From: Cytophagaceae bacterium
Lineage (GTDB): Bacteria; Bacteroidota; Bacteroidia; Cytophagales; Flexibacteraceae
Assembly: GCA_027487695.1 (NCBI GenBank)
Contig: JAIYDB010000049.1
Coordinates: forward strand, 1-40,910
Length of the DNA stretch: 40,910 nt
Direction: 5' to 3'
Part shown: positions 10,248-11,683 of the stretch, one piece after another
How the letters are laid out: each line of letters begins with the position of its first letter
Numbering within the stretch: the first letter of the stretch is position 1
Program-made: the position numbers and the translations under genes
Notes under the pieces: model-generated
Told to the model about the DNA's origin: nothing
Seen by the model: only the letters and a program-made list of their open reading frames with translations
The model's database searches: none

Positions 10248-10278
10248 AAGCTAAACCTAGTTCAGGTTTAGCTTTTTT
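10248..10278 (+). terminator. Rho-independent terminator overlapping the 3' end of the convergent repressor gene
   Basis: AAGCTAAACCT (10248-10258) pairs with AGGTTTAGCTT (10264-10274), and a T run follows to 10278. It terminates the plus-strand gene. The same bases encode the last few residues (LNLN and stop) of the minus-strand gene. Confidence 0.8.
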
Positions 10279-11060
10279 GTTACCATTTGCATTTGCTCTT
10301 GAAGGGCAAGCAAGCCACTCATCATCCCGTCTTTTGAAAGTTGTGGTTCAGGGATTTCTTCACTTATATAATGTACAAAGTGCCAAACTTCTTTCATCTC
10401 ATCAATAGGCACTTCATAGTTTTTGTAAAGTGGATTTAATGATTTTAGCTCCAATACTCTGCCATCGCTAAGTTTTCCATCTAATATCTTGAAAACAATA
10501 CCTTCGGAACTGGTAACGAATATATAGGCCTCACCAATTTTTAGGTTGCGCCAATCATCTACATATTCACCAGTTACCCAGCTACCATCAGGAATAGGCA
10601 ACATACTATCGCCTGAGATTGGGAAGGTTCTGTACTTCCTATCAGAGCGTAGCATTGGCATACGGAATGCAGGCAAGTTTTCAATAAACTCAGGATCTGA
10701 AAAGCCATTGGTATAACCAGCCTTAGCCTTCACTGGAACTAATTCTATATTCTCTTCATTATCTGCCCCCACGGTGGTAGCCAATACTCGAAGATTGGTT
10801 CCTGTTATAAATGGATCGTTACCCATTTCCATTTCTAAAAGTTGCTTTTGCGATACCTTAGATAAATCTTGTTTGATTAAGGTATCTACACTCATCTTAT
10901 AGAAATTGCTGAAAGCGATAAGCGCATCCATATTAGGTTGTGCAATACCGTTTTCATACCCACTTAGGGTAGAACGCTTCATATTCAGGTTTATAGCCAC
11001 CTCATCTTGAGTGCGACCCTTGCGTTTGCGTAGTAGTTTGATATTGTCGGCGAAAAACAT
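10257..11060 (-). CDS. XRE-family repressor with S24 (LexA/UmuD/CI-type) autocleavage domain
   Basis: The product is 267 residues. Residues 3-62 form an XRE/Cro-CI helix-turn-helix (DNIKLLRKRKGRTQDEVA, then RSTLSGYENGIAQPN). The C-terminal half is an S24 domain: Ser152 in SGDSMLP and Lys191 in VFKILDG form the usual Ser-Lys dyad, 39 residues apart (37 in LexA). A plausible scissile bond is Ala114-Gly115 in KAKAGYTNGF, 37 residues before the serine. The protein should thus behave as a self-cleaving damage- or stress-responsive repressor. It faces away from the little-finger-like gene at 11198 across a 137-base region, an arrangement that recalls umuD/umuC pairs. A perfect -7 element (CAAATATA on the plus strand, 11065-11072) lies so close that the mRNA may have almost no leader. 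Its targets are unknown. Confidence 0.85.
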   Translation of the reverse strand: MFFADNIKLLRKRKGRTQDEVAINLNMKRSTLSGYENGIAQPNMDALIAFSNFYKMSVDTLIKQDLSKVSQKQLLEMEMGNDPFITGTNLRVLATTVGADNEENIELVPVKAKAGYTNGFSDPEFIENLPAFRMPMLRSDRKYRTFPISGDSMLPIPDGSWVTGEYVDDWRNLKIGEAYIFVTSSEGIVFKILDGKLSDGRVLELKSLNPLYKNYEVPIDEMKEVWHFVHYISEEIPEPQLSKDGMMSGLLALQEQMQMVTKKLNLN

Positions 11061-11064
11061 AGCA

Positions 11065-11079
11065 CAAATATAACTAGTT
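11065..11079 (-). promoter_or_regulatory. Candidate -7 element and operator of the repressor gene
   Basis: Plus-strand CAAATATA at 11065-11072 reads TATATTTG on the minus strand, a perfect Bacteroidota -7 box, and would place transcription start at or next to the ATG (11060). It touches the 8-bp palindrome AACTAGTT (11072-11079), a possible autorepression site. No good -33 element was found, so confidence is limited. Confidence 0.35.
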
Positions 11080-11093
11080 TTTCGTCAAAAAAG

Positions 11094-11124
11094 TTTGGAG
11101 GTAATTATTTTTTGCCTACTTTTA
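11094..11124 (+). promoter_or_regulatory. Bacteroidota-type promoter for the little-finger-like gene
   Basis: TTTG (11094-11097), exactly 19 bases, then TACTTTTA (11117-11124; matches TAnnTTTG except the last base). Transcription would start near 11131, giving a leader of about 65 bases. A direct repeat CAGTCA (11155-11160 and 11171-11176) lies in that leader and could be a repressor site. Confidence 0.5.
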
Positions 11125-11197
11125 CATCAAGAAACCGATTAAAATATAAACTTTCAGTCAGAAAACTAATCAGTCACCCAAATTTCAACATACAGCC

Positions 11198-11683
11198 ATG
11201 GAAAATTCATTAAAAATCAACACTCGTTACGGTTCATTTACTACCTCACAATACTTTGAGCCAACCTCAGAAAGTATGCAGTTGCAACAGCGTTTACGCC
11301 AACTTTGTAAGCAATTAAATGAACAACTAGTTCTTAATGAAGTTAGTAGTGGAAATATTACCCTACGTGTAATTACTGCTGAAGGCAAACAACTATCGCA
11401 ATCACTTGATTTGGCTGATGGTAGCAACAGACAACTATTAGAAGTTACAGCTCAATTTTTATTACAACAGAGTATGGCAGCAGGTTATTTACCAGTTCAG
11501 CACATACAGTTGAGCATCAATAACTTGGTGTATAAGTATAATAACCACAGCATTGCAGATTCTGCCCAAAAGGAACTACTTCAAAACTTAGATAAGCTAT
11601 CTAAGAAGTATGGCAAGGTGGTAAAATTGAATGCCGATAGCTATTACAAGTATGAACTTACCAGATACGTGGCAGGTTTTTAA
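11198..11683 (+). CDS. Orphan protein resembling a Y-family DNA polymerase little-finger domain plus UmuC-type tail
   Basis: The product is 161 residues, soluble, and not annotated by any motif I can name with certainty. Its pattern of elements follows the little-finger (IMS_C) domain of DinB/UmuC polymerases. A first strand (SFTTSQYFEPT) leads into a long helix (about 25-48). Then come a strand pair (NITLRVITAEGKQLSQSLDL, where polymerases have 'tLKiRyaDFttvtrs.tL'), a second helix (79-95) and a strand VQHIQLSINNL, where polymerases have 'rpvRLlGVslsnL'. The tail LDKLSKKYGKVVKLNAD matches the 'lD.lN.ryGkgtv..a' segment that follows this domain in UmuC-type polymerases. Palm, fingers and thumb are absent, and no polymerase gene precedes it. 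It diverges from an S24 repressor, the usual partner of such polymerases. A DNA- or clamp-binding role is inferred only. Confidence 0.5.
   Translation: MENSLKINTRYGSFTTSQYFEPTSESMQLQQRLRQLCKQLNEQLVLNEVSSGNITLRVITAEGKQLSQSLDLADGSNRQLLEVTAQFLLQQSMAAGYLPVQHIQLSINNLVYKYNNHSIADSAQKELLQNLDKLSKKYGKVVKLNADSYYKYELTRYVAGF

Follow-up and report, generated by a model that had tools for sequence, protein, structure and literature searches.

The repressor and little-finger genes

We analyzed a 40,910-nucleotide stretch of DNA from a Cytophagaceae bacterium, hereafter the window. Within it, two divergently transcribed genes, whose start codons lie 137 bp apart, encode an XRE-S24 repressor and a small protein related to the little finger (LF) of Y-family DNA polymerases, and operator-like sites and a candidate promoter lie between them (Table 1).

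Table 1. Features of the repressor/little-finger locus (window coordinates)
Feature	Position	Strand	Basis
XRE-S24 repressor, 267 aa, by sequence a non-canonical LexA of Bacteroidetes	10257..11060	-	HTH_3 44 bits; Peptidase_S24 24.6 bits (cut-off 23.3); orthologues; PMC8565304
Catalytic Lys191 codon	10488..10490	-	invariant, 13 homologues
Catalytic Ser152 codon	10605..10607	-	GDSM invariant, 13 homologues
Predicted self-cleavage site A114-G115	10716..10721	-	13 homologues
Operator-like site ATAACTAGTTTTTCGTCAA, 10.1 bits	11070..11088	.	PWM from relatives
Candidate Bacteroidetes-type promoter TTTG-N19-TACTTTTA for the LF gene	11094..11124	+	read from sequence
Operator-like site TTGCCTACTTTTACATCAA, 12.8 bits, overlapping the -7 box	11112..11130	.	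top score in the 40.9-kb window
Second operator-like site CCGATTAAAATATAAACTT, 8.1 bits, 23 bp from the site at 11112	11135..11153	.	spacing as in relatives
Orphan LF protein, 161 aa	11198..11683	+	profile, structure matches, gene-like codon use
LF fold, residues 10-114	11225..11539	+	IMS_C residues 17-111; structure matches to model residues 9-114
Place of lost beta-clamp motif, residues 113-123	11534..11566	+	0/6 conserved columns kept; QLxLF in 59/59 relatives
RecA-NT-like tail, residues 123-146 (QKELLQNLDKLSKKYGKVVKLNA)	11564..11635	+	invariant columns; RecA identity

The Pfam profile IMS_C (PF11799) matches the LF protein with an E value of 4e-6 and 27.6 bits (gathering score, 20.7) and is its sole Pfam domain, the rest being a short tail. 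An AlphaFold2 model was built from the single sequence, an input without an alignment, so that the fold was not borrowed from homologues. At a mean pLDDT of 60.6, all its Foldseek matches with E values of ≤0.001 are Y-family polymerases, and comparison with the LF of Dbh (VIA) gives a Z score of 9.3 at 2.8 Å over 103 residues. A second model, which leans on an alignment of 35 DinB homologues, reaches a pLDDT of about 90 in the LF and matches solved Y-family LFs with Z scores of about 15 (1.4 to 2 Å, about 101 residues). The structure matches listed for the models are all Y-family. A sequence-only reading of this DNA had called the protein a Y-family LF and had named a profile search and a structure comparison as the means of checking it; both bear the identification out. 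Its motif assignments also stand, with NITLRVITAEGK and VQHIQLSINNL aligning at the corresponding LF positions and KKYGKVVKLNAD aligning with the C-terminal tail of the polymerases, although the RecA-NT (DUF4113-like) motif of Y-family polymerases (PMC6511836) describes this tail better than the term "UmuC-like" that had been applied to it.

The LF protein is a free little finger without polymerase domains. It lacks the palm, fingers, and thumb, with their catalytic acids, that make a Y-family polymerase, and no IMS palm was found at the locus. As the sequence-only reading had noted, nothing of the kind precedes the LF: the two start codons are too close, and the one IMS palm domain of the genome is encoded on a different contig (C110).

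By its sequence, the S24 repressor belongs to the non-canonical LexA family of Bacteroidetes, published in 2021 (PMC8565304), with which it shares a CI-like helix-turn-helix domain joined to an S24 peptidase, a cleavage site, and a conserved Ser/Lys pair. Residues A114, S152, and K191 are invariant among 13 homologues, and residue 115 is Gly in 11 and Ser in 2. With both domains matched and these residues conserved, the repressor had been correctly read, including its position, strand, cleavage site, and Ser152/Lys191 dyad. Orthologues that are 37 to 58% identical occur in related genomes and Bacteroidales metagenome-assembled genomes (MAGs). In Elizabethkingia anophelis, mitomycin C induces both the regulator gene and the opposite error-prone polymerase gene (PMC8565304). 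Damage induction and RecA-dependent cleavage would be predicted for the LexA of the window.

An inherited lexA/dinB slot

S24 orthologues were gathered from relatives and 80 named contigs, the majority of them Bacteroidales MAGs, and 71 of their loci had at least 700 bp of upstream sequence available. At least 53 of these 71 carry a divergent full-length DinB-type polymerase gene within 2 kb of the S24 gene; one more locus (L192) also has a divergent DinB but falls outside this pattern-based count. The same slot in the window holds only an LF and a tail, and the orphan LF thus occupies an inherited lexA/dinB slot. Conserved linkage with the S24 gene, which the sequence-only reading had made a test of its proposal, therefore holds for the pairing of repressor and dinB but not for that of repressor and LF, since no relative of the LF protein was found. 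Similarly, its statement that no such system had been described needs dividing: the repressor family is described (PMC8565304) and usually diverges from a full-length polymerase gene (53 of 71 loci), whereas no described stand-alone LF was found.

One intact DinB is encoded in this genome, on contig C110, where its gene is divergent from an SRAP (SOS response associated peptidase) gene; this DinB has both the clamp motif and the RecA-NT tail. Tandem operator sites are visible between dinB and the SRAP gene at about positions 643 to 786 of that contig (L002).

Among the Bacteroidales MAGs (L123 to L202), an S24 LexA with a divergent full-length DinB is common, with a tandem TTGATTA-N5-TAATCAA operator in between. 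Both regulator groups have been reported as absent from Bacteroidales, and other motifs have been given for them (PMC8565304).

Operators and a predicted SOS regulon

The operator PWM, which describes the palindromic motif TTGATTAnAnTnTAATCAA, was trained on 44 intergenic regions from relatives, with the window left out. Where related loci have two sites, their spacing is 23 or 24 bp in 36 of 37 cases. The window contains a single pair with such spacing, the one before the LF gene, and only 1 of 200 shuffled windows contained any. Operator-like pairs spaced by 23 bp also precede the genome's own dinB (9.0 and 15.8 bits) and its own recA (14.7 and 6.6 bits, about 31 to 54 bp before the start; L204). 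The candidate promoter of the LF gene was recognized by the Bacteroidetes consensus, TTTG / TAnnTTTG. Given the tandem sites here and before recA and dinB, the sequences predict a shared SOS regulon for the LF gene, recA, and dinB, so that the SOS-like control suggested by the sequence-only reading stands as a prediction.

Palindromic operators upstream of recA, dinB, and the regulator gene, with a 5-bp spacer and often repeated, are also features of the published non-canonical LexA loci, as is an error-prone polymerase locus as the divergent partner (PMC8565304). Two differences are evident. The motif of our relatives is TTGATTA-N5-TAATCAA, unlike the published GGA-N5-TCC or CTAA-N5-TTAG, and the partner in the window has been reduced to the LF and tail of a polymerase.

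What was kept and what was lost

Aligned with 59 related DinB ends, which share 57% identity with one another, the LF protein has a mean identity of 16.6% and a maximum of 20.3%. It keeps 10 of 52 conserved columns in the LF, 4 of 10 in the tail, and none of the 6 at the clamp motif. All 59 of these relatives carry the beta-clamp motif QLxLF, which the LF protein lacks. Furthermore, the LF has a net charge of 0, compared with a mean of +4.8 (+2 to +9) in relatives; only one of eight conserved Lys/Arg positions up to the LF end is still basic, and R45, R59, R95, R96, and R101 are replaced by V, I, A, G, and Q.

By sequence conservation, the best-preserved part of the protein is the C-terminal helix that resembles RecA (RecA-NT). 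Four of the six columns invariant across 36 sequences fall in the tail (L127, D132, G139, and A146), and the homologue-based model predicts a helix at residues 116 to 138, with low confidence beyond residue 140. The tail has the form expected of a RecA-NT motif, an amphipathic helix ending in Gly and resembling the RecA N terminus. Its segment KELLQNLDKLSKKYGK is identical to residues 17 to 32 of the genome's own RecA (KALQLTIDKLDKTYGK) at 9 of 16 positions, with a score of 43; shuffled tails scored 21.3 ± 4.2, with a maximum of 42, and none of 2,000 did as well. Compared with RecA, the turn that follows YGK lacks two residues. Related DinB tails are also RecA-like (median score of 33, and 51 for the genome's own DinB), and the resemblance in the orphan may be merely inherited. 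RecA-NT tails have been described in Y-family polymerases, for which RecA binding was proposed (PMC6511836), and ImuB has been shown to bind the RecA homologue ImuA' through its RecA-NT (PMC11791113).

A profile of the LF and tail of S24-linked DinB proteins matches orphan residues 20 to 147, including the tail, at 17.4 bits. Classic DinB, whose profile matches the LF only (12.2 bits), was ranked lower as an origin. A similarity between MENSLKI and the DinB start MDNTIVH hints at an internal deletion, but the echo is too short to use.

Distribution

The LF protein was found in one genome only. No relatives above chance were found in the genome_contigs database, 59 relatives, the family, plasmids, phages, or IMG/VR. 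Across 390 genomes of the order there were likewise none, the best match (E value of 0.0035) being the LF of a classic DinB, and across 395 genomes of the class there were none either, a 184-aa frame (L208) proving unrelated when read. Sequence searches of the PDB gave chance matches only, and PHROGs and PADLOC gave nothing beyond chance. When all IMS_C matches in the 74 nearest genomes were counted, the only frames of <200 aa were the window ORF and one fragment (L083); for the 390 genomes, the IMS_C matches are the best ones listed, and weak stand-alone LFs are possible beyond those.

Three short frames were set aside as counterparts. That of L082 runs to the edge of its locus and corresponds to the end of a normal DinB, and those of L083 and L084 are classic-DinB LF fragments that have no RecA-NT tail and look decayed. 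The latter two (L083, positions 1465 to 1704; L084, positions 1591 to 1782) come from two genomes of the same genus, each next to a tyrosine-recombinase-like gene.

Alternative explanations

One alternative to a working gene is a decaying remnant. A lexA-side dinB made redundant by the dinB on contig C110 would have lost its 5' part, leaving the LF frame to drift without function; confinement to a single genome, loss of the clamp motif and basic residues, the intact DinB elsewhere, and the decayed-looking LF fragments in other genomes all fit this account. Those fragments differ, however, in being closer to their parent sequence yet short or broken in frame, whereas the 161-codon frame is unbroken. 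Its codon use gives 0.203 bits per codon, as compared with 0.06 to 0.28 for neighboring genes and negative values in the other five frames. When neutral decay was simulated from the end of the genome's own DinB, sequences at 35% identity had accumulated a mean of 5.9 stops and 0 of 300 were stop-free, and the same was true (0 of 300) at 30%. An intact frame with gene-like codons at 17 to 20% identity thus argues for a maintained rather than a decaying gene if most of the divergence followed truncation; this is a single sequence, and part of its divergence may predate truncation, which weakens the simulation argument. The LF fold also remains recognizable from the single sequence, and the start codon, operators, and tail are all retained. 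Overall, we regard a remnant as unlikely, although it is the strongest of the alternatives.

The other alternatives grant the protein a function. It might bind the S24 LexA and tune the shared operators as a corepressor or antirepressor, by analogy with DdrR and UmuDAb in Acinetobacter; there too, a small SOS-regulated gene is divergent from an S24 repressor (PMC7273328), and here the intergenic region holds the operators. Since no homology of DdrR to other proteins is reported (PMC7273328), the analogy is one of layout only, involving another repressor family and another phylum, and the retained RecA-NT tail points to RecA instead, which leaves this role improbable. About as improbable, and if anything slightly more so, is an accessory subunit of a mutasome, acting in trans with a RecA-bound intact DinB or another polymerase, in the manner proposed for stand-alone ImuB-C proteins. 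Stand-alone polymerase modules such as ImuB-C are known in SOS operons (PMC6511836), and the genome's own DinB has a clamp motif, a RecA-NT tail, and the same operators, but that DinB already carries its own LF, and neither dnaE2 nor imuA lies beside the LF gene or dinB in the stretches read. The proposal of the sequence-only reading, that a free LF regulates translesion synthesis by occupying the sliding clamp or lesion DNA, draws on the LF fold and on the Pol IV LF seen on the beta clamp (PDB 1unn). With QLxLF, the net positive charge, and nearly all conserved basic residues lost, the usual LF contacts with either the clamp or lesion DNA are unlikely, and we consider this role very improbable.

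A possible brake acting through RecA

The retained tail, the SOS-type promoter, and the intact DinB elsewhere favor action on RecA or on the contact between RecA and polymerase. Our preferred reading, which we hold at somewhat less than even confidence, is that the LF protein is an SOS-induced DinB derivative without catalytic domains that acts through RecA. The gene would be a maintained descendant of the DinB-type gene that is normally divergent from the Bacteroidetes non-canonical lexA, having lost the palm, fingers, and thumb, along with the clamp motif and the basic surface that contacts DNA, and having kept the SOS promoter, the LF fold, and the RecA-NT tail. DNA damage would activate RecA and lead the S24 LexA to cleave itself, upon which the LF protein would be made alongside RecA and the intact DinB of contig C110. 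The RecA-NT helix of the LF protein may then dock on the RecA surface at the site for the next RecA subunit or the DinB tail, and the docked protein could cap RecA filaments or compete with DinB for RecA, thereby braking recombination or error-prone synthesis. Rather doubtful, in our estimation, is the more specific claim that such a stand-alone LF and RecA-NT, derived from a lexA-linked dinB, is a new SOS regulator that uses RecA mimicry to cap filaments or exclude the polymerase and so provides a dominant-negative brake on mutagenesis.

Relation to known systems

Already known are the repressor, the divergent arrangement of lexA and dinB, RecA-NT motifs, and Y-family proteins that are catalytically dead. 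DinB-type polymerases with a RecA-NT tail (PMC6511836, PMC12926913) resemble the LF protein in LF fold, LF-then-tail order, and SOS-type promoter but have the palm, fingers, thumb, and clamp motif that it lacks; its neutral LF surface and low identity also set it apart. A literature search found no published description of a stand-alone little finger, which is weak evidence given the scope of the library, and a stand-alone LF and RecA-NT without thumb, clamp motif, and ImuB-C was not encountered in PMC6511836, PMC12926913, or PMC11791113. A truncated umuDC operon in Acinetobacter baylyi (Hare et al. 2006, as cited in PMC3978071) is, as far as that citation conveys, a further case in which an SOS repressor locus carries a truncated polymerase gene.

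Here, an SOS polymerase locus has been reduced to its noncatalytic end, with regulation and the RecA-like tail kept, and this separates the roles of the LF and RecA-NT from DNA synthesis. If the LF protein binds RecA, it would offer a natural minimal protein for testing how RecA holds Y-family polymerases and would represent a new genomic means of restraining error-prone synthesis.

ImuB, including its drastically reduced forms (PMC12926913, PMC11791113), is likewise a dead Y-family descendant with an LF and RecA-NT that serves as an SOS adaptor. The most reduced ImuB still retains the thumb, LF, and ImuB-C, whereas the LF protein has neither thumb nor ImuB-C domain and no clamp motif. In two genomes of one genus (G144 and G330; loci L075 and L076), the sole IMS_C match is weak (about 30 bits) and falls in a 441-aa frame that is possibly ImuB-like.
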